From Futiania mangrovi (GTDB lineage Bacteria > Pseudomonadota > Alphaproteobacteria > Futianiales > Futianiaceae): a stretch of 64,000 nt of DNA. The notes under the pieces were generated by a model. That model made no database searches, had not been told where the DNA came from, and saw nothing but the letters and a program-made list of their open reading frames with translations. Location: contig NZ_JAMZFT010000004.1 of assembly GCF_024158125.1 (NCBI RefSeq), positions 1 through 64,000 of the forward strand, given 5' to 3'. The position numbers and the translations under genes are program-made. How positions within the stretch are numbered: position 1 is the first letter of the stretch; every line of letters starts with the position of its first letter. Shown in pieces: positions 52,413 through 59,160 of the stretch.

Positions 52413-52616
52413 ATGCGCCATCCGCTGTTAAGGCTTCTTCTCATGCTTGCGCCGCCCGTGGTCAGCGGGGGGGCCATTCATGTCGTCATGTCGGCGATGG
52501 GCGCGGACCCTTCGATCGCGCTCTTTCTCTCCGTCGTCGTTGGCCTGCTAACGCTTGTCCTGGCGTTCCTGCTGGTCCGGCCGTCCGTGCTCAGGATCCG
52601 CCGGAAGAAGGAGTAG
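52413..52616 (+). CDS. Small membrane protein of unknown function, two predicted helices
   Basis: A 67-residue protein from ATG 52413: MRHPLLRLLLMLAPPVVSGG, a second hydrophobic segment (IALFLSVVVGLLTLVLAFLL), and a basic tail RIRRKKE. The tail suggests both ends face the cytoplasm. I do not recognise it. Its last 26 bp overlap the 3' end of the convergent RiPP-cluster protease. A TTG 90 nt upstream is an alternative start. A role in peptide export or immunity is possible but unsupported. Confidence 0.5.
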   Translation: MRHPLLRLLLMLAPPVVSGGAIHVVMSAMGADPSIALFLSVVVGLLTLVLAFLLVRPSVLRIRRKKE

Positions 52617-53577
52617 GCCGGGGCGTCAGGTCGACCGCCTCGTTCCACATCAGATATCGCCCGCCGAAATGGATCCCGACGACGGCGCCCGTGGCGGGAT
52701 CGATCACCGGGGAGCCCGAGCTGCCGCCCAGGGTCGAGGCATCGTGCCGCAGGGTGTAGAGTGCAAGCTCCCGGCTCAGGATCCTGCCTGGCAGAACCCG
52801 TTTCACATTGTAGATGCCCCGGAAGATCCGCTGCATGACCTCGGCGTCGTTGCGCCGCGAGTCGAACGCCGGATAGCCGAGCGCGACCACGTCGGCGCCA
52901 GCGCGCGCGGGCTGCGCTGCGTGGGGCAGCGGAGAAGGGCAGCCGCCGGGCGCCATCTGCAGGACCGCGATGTCGAAGTGGGTGTGCACGCCCCAAATGC
53001 CGGTGACGGCGACCTCGCGGGTCTGAAGACCGCCGATCTCCTCCGCAAAGTCGACGCGCACGCCGACCCCCTCGCGGATGTGCCATCCGTGCACCGGGTC
53101 GTGCGATGCGAACGTCTCCACCACATGGCGGTTCGTGGCGACGAGATCCTCGGCGATCACGAAGCCGGTGCCGACCCAGTCGAGGTCGATGTCGCCTTCC
53201 GCCTCGATCCGGCCGGTCCGGGCCAGCGCGTGCTCGATTGCGGCGCGGTGTCCCTCCAGGTGCGCCCACTCTTCCGGCATGGGGAGGAACTGCCCGTCCT
53301 GCACCAGCACGGCCGGACGCAGCTCCGTGTGGACGATCGCCTCGAGGACCAGGGTATCGCGGTCGGTCAGCGCCTCGGGCGGGGTCGCCTCCGTCAGGCG
53401 CTCCGTCAGGTCGGCCATCTCCGCGGTCAGGGCGGCGGCTTCGGGCGCGCTTTCGGTGTGTGCATGTACCGCGCGGTAGGTCTTCCCGGTATCGAGACGC
53501 CCGCCCCGGGCGATCCAGCCGGGCCGGCAATTGCGGACGAGGCCCAGCAGGCGGCGGCGCTTGTCATGCGGGTGCAT
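52591..53577 (-). CDS. Trypsin-like serine protease of the RiPP operon
   Basis: A 328-aa chymotrypsin-fold protease. The triad is H151 (VATNRHVVE), D202 (HTHFDIAVL) and S287 (GGSSGSPVID). There is no signal peptide or membrane helix, so it should act in the cytoplasm, unlike most HtrA/trypsin-like bacterial proteases. About 130 residues precede the protease domain, partly helical and charged. Its start overlaps the cupin gene by 14 bp, making it the last gene of the RiPP operon. The likely role is leader removal from the modified precursor; this is inference. Confidence 0.85.
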   Translation of the reverse strand: MHPHDKRRRLLGLVRNCRPGWIARGGRLDTGKTYRAVHAHTESAPEAAALTAEMADLTERLTEATPPEALTDRDTLVLEAIVHTELRPAVLVQDGQFLPMPEEWAHLEGHRAAIEHALARTGRIEAEGDIDLDWVGTGFVIAEDLVATNRHVVETFASHDPVHGWHIREGVGVRVDFAEEIGGLQTREVAVTGIWGVHTHFDIAVLQMAPGGCPSPLPHAAQPARAGADVVALGYPAFDSRRNDAEVMQRIFRGIYNVKRVLPGRILSRELALYTLRHDASTLGGSSGSPVIDPATGAVVGIHFGGRYLMWNEAVDLTPRPTPSSGGS

Positions 53578-54436
53578 GGATGTCCTCCTTCAGGGCGCGG
53601 ACGACGAGTTCGGAGAGATCGCCCGGGGGTGCGGGCGCCTGCGCTCTGCCCGGGCGCCAGCTGTCAAGCGCAGCGCGCGTGACCACGGCCAGGGCGGGCG
53701 GCAGCAGGTGCCAGGCGCCGGGCGAGAGGCTCGGGCTATCGGCGTCGCGGGCGCGGACGAGGGCGTTGCCGTCCTCGACAAGATGCAACAGGCCGATGGC
53801 GGCATGAACCGCGCCCGAGGGGCCGTTCGCCGCCTGATGCGGCGTGCCCCGCGGCAGCCAGAGTGCGTCGCCGGCGCGCAGGACGACGCGCTCCGCCGAT
53901 TCCGGACCGCGCGGGCCGAGGCGTGCCGCAACGTCCAAGATCTTCTCGCCCGTCAGAACCAGCATCAGGACGTCGTGCGGATCGCGATGCCAGGGCAGCC
54001 CGGGTGTCTCCGGCGGCCCGGCATAGAGGTTGACCTGGCAGGGCTGCGCGGTTTCTGCCTCGAACGCGCGGGCGAGCCGGTCCCAGCCCGGCGATTGCGC
54101 ATCTGCTTTCTGGATGACGAGGGTCGCGCTGGCCGCGAGAAGCGCCCGCGCGCCGCGTCTTCCCAGATGACCGCCGGGTTCGAGGTGACGCGCAAGGTCG
54201 ACGGCGGCCGCCTTGCCCTCGATCCGGCGGACGGCCCGCACCTCCATGTCGGCGGGACGCGGGCGCAGGCCGTCGGCCAGAGCGGCGGCGAGCGTCAGCG
54301 GCGCTACGGTCTCCAACCGGGCGGCCACCCGCAGCAGTACCGCACCGCCCGTGCGCCGGGGGGCCGCCGCTATCTGCCGGCCGAGACGGCGGATCGCAAT
54401 GGCGTCCGAGGGTCGAACCACGCTGCGGTCAGACAT
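53564..54436 (-). CDS. JmjC-like cupin oxygenase (ribosomal-oxygenase type)
   Basis: A 290-aa protein. Residues about 130-220 match the JmjC/cupin_4 core: QVNLYAGPP, then LPWHRDPHD with H150 and D152 as probable Fe(II) ligands, LTGEKILDVA, and GDALWLPRGTPHQA with the third ligand H200. 2-oxoglutarate-dependent ribosomal oxygenases of this type hydroxylate His or Arg side chains of proteins. Located between YcaO and the protease in a RiPP operon, it may hydroxylate the precursor. Overlaps on both sides (8 and 14 bp) show translational coupling. Confidence 0.75.
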   Translation of the reverse strand: MSDRSVVRPSDAIAIRRLGRQIAAAPRRTGGAVLLRVAARLETVAPLTLAAALADGLRPRPADMEVRAVRRIEGKAAAVDLARHLEPGGHLGRRGARALLAASATLVIQKADAQSPGWDRLARAFEAETAQPCQVNLYAGPPETPGLPWHRDPHDVLMLVLTGEKILDVAARLGPRGPESAERVVLRAGDALWLPRGTPHQAANGPSGAVHAAIGLLHLVEDGNALVRARDADSPSLSPGAWHLLPPALAVVTRAALDSWRPGRAQAPAPPGDLSELVVRALKEDIHAPA

Positions 54437-55316
54437 GGCGCCCTCCCTTCAGTGCACGGACGACGGTCCCCCCGAAGCCGCGGAAGGCGGGCGGCGTCGC
54501 ATCGGCAAAGACGAGCCCGCTGGCGTCGAAGGCCTCTGCCGGGGTGATGACCGGCTGCACGTGCCCGTGTGTGCCCGTGGCGTGGAGGTCCCGGATCGTG
54601 CGTATCCCGAAGGGCGCGAGCAGTGCGTCGCCTGCACCGACGCTGCCCGGCAGCACCTCGCCTTCCGCTGCGAGATGCGCGAGCGCGGCCTCCCGCACAG
54701 CCTTTTCCGCGGAGGCTTGCGGGTCCGGATCGGCGGCGGAGCCCGCCCCCGCGATGCGGCCCCGGCCATCTGCGATGACGGCGAGCATCGCAGGGATCGG
54801 CGCCGGCAGCAGGTAGAGCGTCGCTTGATTCTTGCCGCAGCATTGCGTCCCCGCCGCCGCCACACCGGGGCCACCCGTGGACAGGGCGTCCCTGAGCGCC
54901 GCCCGCTCGATCAGTTCGAGCCCGGCGCGCAGGCAGGCCGTCTGCCTGTCGAAGGCGAAGGCCAAGCCCTCCGACGTTGCGGGCAGAACCGGTCCGCGTG
55001 CGTCGCAGTAGGGCAAATAGACGCGCGCCGCAGGCACCCAACCCGCCGGCACGCCGGAGAACGTTCGGGCAGGGACCTCTGCCGGGGTGCCGTCGGGCAC
55101 CAGCGCCGCGCCGAGCCGTTCGAGACATTCACCCAGCGCCCGCGCTTCCGCATCCTCGCGCGTGGCCCCCGCGCCGAGGCCGAGGGCCACATCCGCCGCC
55201 CCGCCCATGGTGCGCGCGTCGGCTCCTTTCGCCACTGCCACCCAGAGGCCGAGATCTGCAAACGCCCGCGCCTCCAGCGACTCCACCAGACCCGCGAGTG
55301 CCGATGCGTCACGCAT
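54429..55316 (-). CDS. Compact YcaO-domain protein
   Basis: A 295-aa protein with the YcaO ATP-binding pattern: DAEARALGECLERLG, AGLELIERAALRDAL (Glu residues for Mg-ATP) and ASAEKAVREAAL. YcaO enzymes activate peptide backbones with ATP to form azolines, thioamides or amidines. It is about 100 residues shorter than typical YcaO proteins and ends soon after GGTVVRAL, without a Pro-rich C-terminus. No E1-like, TfuA or dehydrogenase partner is encoded nearby. Start 55316 overlaps the SPASM gene stop by 8 bp; the frame is open further upstream but only as a shadow. Confidence 0.82.
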   Translation of the reverse strand: MRDASALAGLVESLEARAFADLGLWVAVAKGADARTMGGAADVALGLGAGATREDAEARALGECLERLGAALVPDGTPAEVPARTFSGVPAGWVPAARVYLPYCDARGPVLPATSEGLAFAFDRQTACLRAGLELIERAALRDALSTGGPGVAAAGTQCCGKNQATLYLLPAPIPAMLAVIADGRGRIAGAGSAADPDPQASAEKAVREAALAHLAAEGEVLPGSVGAGDALLAPFGIRTIRDLHATGTHGHVQPVITPAEAFDASGLVFADATPPAFRGFGGTVVRALKGGRHV

Positions 55317-56601
55317 GCGCGGCCTCGCGGCGGGCGTCCGCTTCGAGGCGTGCGAAGTGTGCGAACACTTCCGCCAGCCCGCAGCAGCCGCCCGCTGTGC
55401 CGCGCAGGTCGGCGATGTGCGCCTCGTGCGGGCACCAGCCCTTGCAGCGCCCGAACCACTTGCACGCGGCGAGCCGGGTCTGGGCGGCGCGGTAGCGGTC
55501 CTTGAGCGCGCGCATCTCCGTCGAGGCGCGCATCTCCGCGAAGCTCCGCTCCGCGAGCGTGCCGAGCACATGGGCGTCGGAGCCCAGGAACTTGTCGCAG
55601 TGCATGACCTGCCCGTCCGGATCGACGCCGAAATAGTCGCCAAGGCAGGGGCCGCGCAGCTCGCAGAAGCCCGTCCCCGTGCCCTGGTAGGCTGCGTGGA
55701 GCGCATCCAGTTCCCGCACGGCGAGCCGCCGGTCGGGATGGGCGCGCAGCGCGTCGAGCAGGCGCACGAGAAAGCGGGCAAACGCCTCCGGCGCGAGGCA
55801 GGGACCGGATCCGTCCGCCGACGACGGGCGCACCGGCAGGAAGGCGGCGGCATCGACGCCCGCAGCCTCCAGCGCATCCACGAGGTAGAGCGGATCGAGG
55901 GCCGCGATCTCCTCCGTCACGACGACCAGCGCGCCGGCGAAGAGGCCCGCCGCCTTCAGCCGCCCGATCCCGTCCGCCGCCGCGTCGAAGGAGGGCGTGT
56001 CCGCAACCGTCCTGCGGGTGCGGTCGTGCATCTCGCGCGGGCCGTCGAGGCTGACGCTCGCGCGCACGCCGAACAGTTTCCATAGCGCGATCATCTCGTC
56101 GGTCAGCCCGACGCCGTTCGTCTGCAGCGAGTTGCGCACCATCTGGCCCGGCCGCCGCAGCCTGGCTTGCAGCCAGAGGAAGCCCAGCGTGCGCCGGACG
56201 CCGAGCAGCGACGGCTCGCCCCCGTGCCAGACGAACTTGAGCGTGGCGGCGCGCGCATCCTCCGCGGCACGGCGCAGCATCAGCACCTGGGTGCGCGGTG
56301 TCATCTGCTGGCCGGGTCCCTCGCGCCAGTCGTTGCAATAGGTGCAACGCAGGTTGCAATGGCGCGTCAGCTTGGCGATCAGCACCAGCGTTGCAAAGCC
56401 GTCCGGAGGTGTGAGAGCGGGCGGCCCTGCCCGTTCGACCTCGGCGAAGACCGGATCCTTCAGCGGAAGGTCGCGGGCGGCGACGCTGCCCAGGGCGTCG
56501 AGCGGCCTCTTGCCGCCTGCGCGCGCCTGCGCGAACGCTTCCCGGCCCGCGGGCGCGAGGGCTGAAAGCGCATCCGTTTCGATGTCCGCCGCCTCGGTCA
56601 T
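55309..56601 (-). CDS. Radical SAM/SPASM peptide maturase
   Basis: A 430-aa radical SAM enzyme. The SAM [4Fe-4S] motif is C82-x3-C86-x2-C89 (HCNLRCTYCN), followed by WHGGEP. The C-terminal SPASM-type region has C313, C319, C335, C380, C386, C390, C406 and C407, enough for two auxiliary clusters. Such enzymes form thioether or C-C crosslinks in RiPPs, including three-residue cyclophanes at aromatic residues. The precursor's Trp150, Trp162, Phe168 and Phe189 are possible targets. The gene lies 12 nt after the B12 radical SAM gene. Confidence 0.88.
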   Translation of the reverse strand: MTEAADIETDALSALAPAGREAFAQARAGGKRPLDALGSVAARDLPLKDPVFAEVERAGPPALTPPDGFATLVLIAKLTRHCNLRCTYCNDWREGPGQQMTPRTQVLMLRRAAEDARAATLKFVWHGGEPSLLGVRRTLGFLWLQARLRRPGQMVRNSLQTNGVGLTDEMIALWKLFGVRASVSLDGPREMHDRTRRTVADTPSFDAAADGIGRLKAAGLFAGALVVVTEEIAALDPLYLVDALEAAGVDAAAFLPVRPSSADGSGPCLAPEAFARFLVRLLDALRAHPDRRLAVRELDALHAAYQGTGTGFCELRGPCLGDYFGVDPDGQVMHCDKFLGSDAHVLGTLAERSFAEMRASTEMRALKDRYRAAQTRLAACKWFGRCKGWCPHEAHIADLRGTAGGCCGLAEVFAHFARLEADARREAAHA

Positions 56602-58516: not shown

Positions 58517-59092
58517 TCAGCGGCCGAAACCGCCCGGCAGGCCGCCGAGGCCGCCCGGATTGACCGGGTTGGTCAGCGTGCCGCCCCGGAACGCCGGGTT
58601 GGTGCGCCAGCCGCCGACGTCGACCTTGTCGAGATCCTTCGACCAGTCGACCCCCACGCAGGCGACGCCGACACCCACGCCGACCGCATCCTGGACCGTG
58701 CCTCCGCCGATGTTGCCGAGGCGGCCCTGCTCGACCTTCGTCAGGCCGGCGAAGGCGTCGCTCAGATGCACCGCACGCATCTTCGCCAGGTTGTCGACCT
58801 GGATCTTGCGCAGGTTCTCGACGCGGCCTTCCTTCGATGCAACGCCTTCCAGATGGTGCGCCGCGGCGCCGAAGATACCCAGGAGATAGAGGCGCTGGCG
58901 GTCGCTCAGCTTGTTCTCGATGCTCTCGATGGCGTCGGAGATGCCGTCAAGCTCCTCGTCGTCCAGTTCGATCTCCGTCATGCCGCCGGACGCGGCCCCG
59001 CCCTGGCGCAGCAGGGCGAGCACCTCGTCCAGCCGTTCCTCCAGCGCGTCGATGCGTTGTTCAAGCCCTTGCAGCGATCGTGTCGTGGCCAT
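58517..59092 (-). CDS. Candidate RiPP precursor, 191 aa with Gly-rich C-terminus
   Basis: First gene of the six-gene operon. Residues 1-32 form a predicted coiled coil (LEQRIDALEERLDEVLALL), 38-60 are acidic, and 60-125 are helical, all fitting a long leader. From residue 127 the sequence turns Gly-rich: GNIGGGTVQ, VGVGVGVACVGVDW, VGGWRTNPAFRGG, TNPVNPGGLGGLPGGFGR. It has one Cys (145), two Trp (150, 162) and two related TNP-x-GG units. I do not recognise a family. A ribosome site (AGGGGAG) precedes ATG 59092. The call rests on position, size and composition. Confidence 0.7.
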   Translation of the reverse strand: MATTRSLQGLEQRIDALEERLDEVLALLRQGGAASGGMTEIELDDEELDGISDAIESIENKLSDRQRLYLLGIFGAAAHHLEGVASKEGRVENLRKIQVDNLAKMRAVHLSDAFAGLTKVEQGRLGNIGGGTVQDAVGVGVGVACVGVDWSKDLDKVDVGGWRTNPAFRGGTLTNPVNPGGLGGLPGGFGR

Positions 59093-59160
59093 GGTGAAGC
59101 ACTCCCCTCTTCGGTTCTATGGCGTTTCCGAATGCGACTGGGCGCCGGGGCGGTGTTCAT

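Follow-up and report, generated by a model that had tools for sequence, protein, structure and literature searches.

What does a six-gene operon of Futiania mangrovi make, and what part in it falls to the 191-residue protein encoded by its first gene? The question arises in a window of 64,000 nucleotides (positions 1 to 64,000 of the forward strand of contig NZ_JAMZFT010000004.1), in which a sequence-only reading had singled out this protein – P0002 – as a candidate precursor with a long structured leader and a Gly-rich tail. Our analysis makes it highly probable that P0002 is a RiPP precursor matured by the products of its own operon: the operon is tight, its membership is conserved, the leader and tail show the pattern of such a precursor, and motifs in the tail are conserved. 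The enzymes belong to known families, but their combination with this precursor was not found described: a literature search, mainly of open-licence papers, returned no published description of the cluster. We file it as a RiPP operon.

The precursor gene and its protein

The open reading frame is a real gene, encoded by the minus strand (59092→58517), a point on which the earlier claim had been silent; the plus strand across the same interval is a different reading frame. Its G+C content per codon position (0.74/0.44/0.87) is typical of coding DNA, and codon differences between two Sphingopyxis orthologues are 16 synonymous versus 1 non-synonymous. Because orthologues exist in four other genomes, a chance open reading frame is ruled out.

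Residue counts bear out the compositional split that had been described. Residues 1–125 contain 23 Asp/Glu versus 15 Lys/Arg, 14% Gly+Val+Pro, and neither Cys nor Trp; residues 126–191 are 50% Gly+Val+Pro and carry the sole Cys (145), both Trp (150 and 162) and Phe at 168 and 189, ending in GGFGR as reported. Two TNP-containing units ending in GG had also been noted, and P0002 does have them (TNP at 164 and 174), but no relative has the second, and the idea that these units form a repeat-expanded core was dropped for that reason. As for the helical leader, AlphaFold (run on a three-row alignment of the precursor) gives helical secondary structure to about residue 106, but at a pLDDT of 35 and a pTM of 0.27 the model does not confirm a structured fold.

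The remark that no matching family came to mind also held: no Pfam or NCBIfam model matched P0002 above cutoff, the Nif11 and nitrile-hydratase-like (NHLP) leader models in those two collections included. A Pfam match to ABC_tran_CTD (E 0.0086) was under cutoff and resembles coiled-coil noise, and a precursor profile searched against PDB chain sequences matched nothing beyond coiled-coil or sigma-factor chains, and those weakly (best E 0.038). Since no family model matched, a genome-mining tool dependent on models of precursors would not put a name to P0002.

Table 1. Features of the operon and of its precursor gene, in coordinates of the window.
Feature	Coordinates	Strand	Basis or remark
Ribosome-binding-like GGGGAG	59102..59107	minus	Purine-rich, upstream of P0002
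P0002, precursor gene, 191 aa	58517..59092	minus	First gene of the operon
Leader, residues 1-126	58715..59092	minus	Variable 1-37, then conserved block 38-126 (52-63% identity)
Core/tail, residues 127-191	58520..58714	minus	Gly/Val/Pro-rich; length differs between distant relatives
Val/Gly track VGVGVGVACVGV, residues 137-148	58649..58684	minus	Holds the only Cys; putative C-methylation target
W150-S151-K152	58637..58645	minus	Invariant; candidate three-residue cyclophane site by analogy with darobactin W-S-K (PMC9055067)
W162-R163-T164	58601..58609	minus	W-x-T invariant; middle residue Q in Polyangiaceae
F189-G190-R191 within GLPGGF(G/T)R	58520..58528	minus	Possible third cyclophane site or C-terminal recognition tag
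P0003, B12-binding radical SAM C-methyltransferase, TIGR03975	56614..58512	minus	NCBIfam match
P0004, radical SAM/SPASM enzyme, nearest DarW/DarE	55309..56601	minus	NCBIfam scores and tree
P0005, compact YcaO	54429..55316	minus	Pfam YcaO, 52.7 bits (cutoff 25.7)
P0006, JmjC_2/cupin oxygenase, HxD...H	53564..54436	minus	Pfam JmjC_2, 39 bits (cutoff 22)
P0007, trypsin-like serine protease	52591..53577	minus	Trypsin_2, 72.5 bits (cutoff 27.6)

The operon and its enzymes

The six genes run in the same direction, each separated from the next by no more than 12 bp or overlapping it slightly, and encode in order the precursor, a B12 radical-SAM C-methyltransferase, a SPASM enzyme, a YcaO protein, a JmjC_2 oxygenase and a trypsin-like protease (Table 1). 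P0003 scores 639 bits against TIGR03975 (cutoff 281.85), covers profile positions 1–606 of 606, and has a winged-helix-like C-terminal stretch at residues 573–618. The best NCBIfam model for P0004 is DarW (NF041300, 240–251 bits) and the next is DarE (184.5 bits), both under a cutoff of 650; the enzyme also failed the GrrM (66 bits, cutoff 310), FxsB (102, 370), YhhB (107, 445) and XyeB (53, 450) models and did not reach the DynA cutoff. In a tree of SPASM enzymes, those of the operon form a single clade (100/100) that neighbours DarE and DarW-like enzymes and is separate from the sulfatase maturases (92/95).

NCBIfam and Pfam recognised no ThiF or TfuA-type partner of the YcaO protein among the remaining four enzymes encoded in the window operon. 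The relatives keep the HxD...H residues of the JmjC enzyme and the His/Asp/Ser residues of the protease, which in the window (P0007) has no evident signal peptide.

Three enzymes of the window lack stretches that their counterparts have. P0004 (start 56601) is without some 65–85 N-terminal residues that are present in the Polyangiaceae and Sphingopyxis enzymes, P0005 (start 55316) is without the N-terminal CxxC...CxC stretch of the YcaO proteins from the same two sources, and P0006 is without the C-terminal extension of about 50 residues seen in the Sphingopyxis versions; RRE-like domains have been reported fused to PF08007 proteins (PMC12710340).

Relatives and distribution

A search of genome contigs with P0004 found two full relatives, in Sphingopyxis sp. 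LK2115 (L011) and in a Polyangiaceae MAG (L012), together with a more distant enzyme in Phycisphaerae (L013). Both full relatives have the precursor, both radical-SAM enzymes, the YcaO protein and the protease in the order of the window operon, and L011 also has the JmjC gene. A profile of the precursor added two further Sphingopyxis genomes, both with complete operons. The sequence-only reading had pointed to homologues outside any modification cluster as evidence against a precursor; we looked for them and saw none, the precursor being the first gene, directly upstream of the same radical-SAM operon, in five of five cases, with both radical-SAM enzymes, the YcaO protein and the protease kept each time.

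The precursor and its enzyme set are rare and patchy in distribution, for the precursor family occurs in only 3 of 80 members of the genus Sphingopyxis, and P0004 had no further match at E 1e-40 among 385 genomes of the same class. In a sample of 96 other genomes the precursor had weak matches at best (E 0.003 or worse), and no homologue was found in plasmids and viral contigs. One match (L019, E 9e-5) was rejected, as it falls in a sensor-kinase frame.

The SPASM tree pairs the Polyangiaceae enzyme with that of Sphingopyxis (90/90) and leaves P0004 outside the pair, which suggests horizontal transfer or a misassigned contig. The Polyangiaceae locus as a whole (L012:3760-9954) – no JmjC gene seen, a precursor without Cys, enzymes that group with Sphingopyxis – likewise hints at transfer or at misbinning. 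The joint absence there of Cys145 and the JmjC gene is a single correlation.

Conservation of leader and tail, and the nature of the product

Across three distinct lineages – window, Sphingopyxis and Polyangiaceae, and so few independent sequences – the precursor is 52–63% identical in block 38–126 with at most one gap column, 27–64% identical in residues 1–37, and 49–77% identical in the tail (127–191), where distant pairs have 37–39 gap columns. A conserved leader and a variable tail had been predicted; the leader block is indeed nearly gapless and the tail variable in length, but the tail is not hypervariable. Between distant pairs its conservation roughly equals that of the leader, so the product is not diversifying.

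Three stretches of the tail are invariant in the three lineages: W150-S151-K152, G160-x-W162-x-T164 and G184-L-P-G-G-F189-x-R191. Within each, the aromatic residue (W150, W162 or F189) and the residue two places on (K, T or R) never change, and in two of the motifs the residue between them varies, on a count of three lineages only. The expectation that Trp, Phe and Cys positions would be retained was therefore borne out for both Trp and the C-terminal Phe, but not for Phe168, which is Leu in the distant relative, nor for Cys, which is absent from it. The Sphingopyxis tails are identical in three species whose enzymes are 62–97% identical (YcaO 62–83%, JmjC 76–92%, protease up to 97%); tails that stay the same as enzymes diverge may be taken as an argument for selection on the product.

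The similar conservation of leader and tail, and a Sphingopyxis precursor more conserved than its enzymes, would also suit a chain of 191 residues kept whole, as a modified protein or protein-bound cofactor, with the operon as its maturation system (compare quinohemoprotein amine dehydrogenase, matured by a SPASM enzyme). That no exporter or immunity gene is recognised in the window operon points the same way. We nonetheless consider this improbable: a trypsin-like protease is conserved in every operon, the tail ranges from about 62 to 103 residues among homologues while the enzymes stay similar, and the operon encodes no partner redox protein.

There is a slim chance that the core serves as a carrier, or as a scaffold for a small molecule, and is cut back to no more than a few residues in the manner of pearlin or PQQ biosynthesis, most of the tail being recognition sequence and GLPGGF(G/T)R the business end or a docking tag. 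Pearlins do use carrier peptides (PMC9303977), and this C-terminal run is the longest strictly conserved one in the tail; against that, W-S-K and W-x-T are conserved far from the C-terminus, and NCBIfam and Pfam reveal no peptide aminoacyl-tRNA ligase or PQQ-type enzyme in the operon. That P0002 is a chaperone or scaffold for radical-SAM enzymes acting on another substrate is very improbable. Its long leader-like domain, helical in the low-confidence model, would fit such a role, but we noticed no other precursor-like open reading frame immediately ahead of the operon, the tail has conserved aromatic-X-X motifs and the low complexity that cores often have, and gene order and adjacency fit a precursor gene.

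A proposed maturation

If P0002 is a RiPP precursor, its leader of about 126 residues would recruit the operon enzymes and the last 65 or so residues would be the substrate. The SPASM enzyme would act at W150-S-K152, and perhaps also at W162-x-T164 and F189-x-R191, bonding the aromatic ring of the first residue to the beta-carbon of the third. DarE makes such links in W-S-K and W-S-R, joining Trp to Lys and accepting Arg for Lys (PMC9055067), and triceptide SPASM enzymes link Trp or Phe at position i to the beta-carbon of i+2 (PMC11002830). Because the three invariant motifs have this same spacing and the SPASM enzyme lies beside DarE/DarW-like enzymes, we think it probable, by analogy, that at least one three-residue cyclophane link is formed, with W-S-K as the most likely site.

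The further steps are those suggested by enzyme class. The odds are about even that P0003 C-methylates the Val/Gly track or its flanks. Modification of the backbone by the YcaO protein, at Cys145 or elsewhere, is a tentative proposal, as is hydroxylation of a side chain by the JmjC_2 enzyme, each somewhat short of an even chance. The trypsin-like protease is the natural candidate to cut the leader from the core, and we lean slightly towards its doing so.

Taken in full, these steps would define a new RiPP class. Directed by a large leader, a DarE-like enzyme would install up to three three-residue cyclophanes (W-S-K, W-x-T, F-x-R) in a single chain; the Val/Gly track of that chain would be C-methylated, and a YcaO protein working without a partner would modify the backbone of the track, with JmjC hydroxylation as an option. 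In that complete form we regard the scheme as doubtful. If true, one small operon would subject a single peptide to radical C-methylation and radical C-C cross-linking as well as to backbone modification by YcaO and oxidation by a JmjC enzyme. The darobactin-like group of enzymes would reach past the substrates now known for it, and specificity tests would gain a substrate that offers three candidate sites for cross-links.

Comparison with known systems

The daropeptides (DarA/DarE) come close. They share with this operon a W-S-K in the core, a SPASM enzyme placed near DarE/DarW in the tree, and the cluster motif CNLRCTYC, found in P0004 and quoted for DarE (PMC9055067). They differ in that the present operon has no DarBCD transporter, a 191-residue precursor with another leader, and extra B12 radical-SAM, YcaO, JmjC and protease genes. 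The daropeptide core rule, WxWx(K/R) or WT(F/Y)RF, also fails, the sequence here being V-D-W-S-K or V-T-W-S-K: the position two before the central Trp, darobactin W1, is Val in every homologue. With no W1 there can be no darobactin ether link and at most a Trp-Lys C-C link, and the product would therefore not be a daropeptide by definition.

Plasmid p1 of Cupriavidus sp. KK10 (L010:9374-9703) carries a 110-residue open reading frame with W-V-R and W-E-K, upstream of a DarW-like SPASM gene and a glycosyltransferase-like open reading frame; this may be a precursor belonging to a different but related system. The likeness of its leader to that of P0002 is weak and not significant (hhalign E 0.029 with a probability of 1.7%, in one comparison out of eight).

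Triceptides (XncB, OscB/GrrM, FxsB, YhhB) resemble our system in their Gly-rich tail, their SPASM maturase and their aromatic-X-X motifs, in which the third residue is conserved (here as judged from three lineages), but P0004 is well under the GrrM, FxsB and YhhB cutoffs and outside these enzymes in the tree, and other enzymes are present here.

Polytheonamide-type proteusins combine a Val/Gly-rich core with a long leader. That pattern is shared by P0002, as it is by TvgA, the poly-cyclopropylglycine precursor with TVGG repeats (PMC11002830), but the present system has no match to a nitrile-hydratase-like or Nif11 leader, no epimerase and no TVGG repeats.

In the biphenomycin cluster a B12 radical-SAM enzyme (BipD) stands with a JmjC ornithine hydroxylase (BipG), so that JmjC oxygenases do act in RiPP clusters (PMC12707348). 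The pairing within one cluster is the same as ours; its MNIO and TldD-type peptidase are missing here, and its quoted gene list is without SPASM or YcaO (PMC12707348).

To the RiPPs of TIGR03975 (rSAM_ocin_1) the operon is tied by P0003, a clear member. The relatives examined have other partners – a SPASM enzyme and Cys-rich precursor (L033), a pheganomycin-type precursor (L021), a radical-SAM epimerase and Nif11 precursor (L022) – and neither this precursor nor this enzyme set was present at those three loci. The suggestion that long leaders often accompany B12 radical-SAM enzymes found support at L033:2805-3839, where a 344-residue open reading frame, upstream of a SPASM gene and a TIGR03975 relative, has a tail rich in Cys and Gly behind a long leader whose end is an AGG-like site, and looks like a long-leader, Cys-rich precursor.
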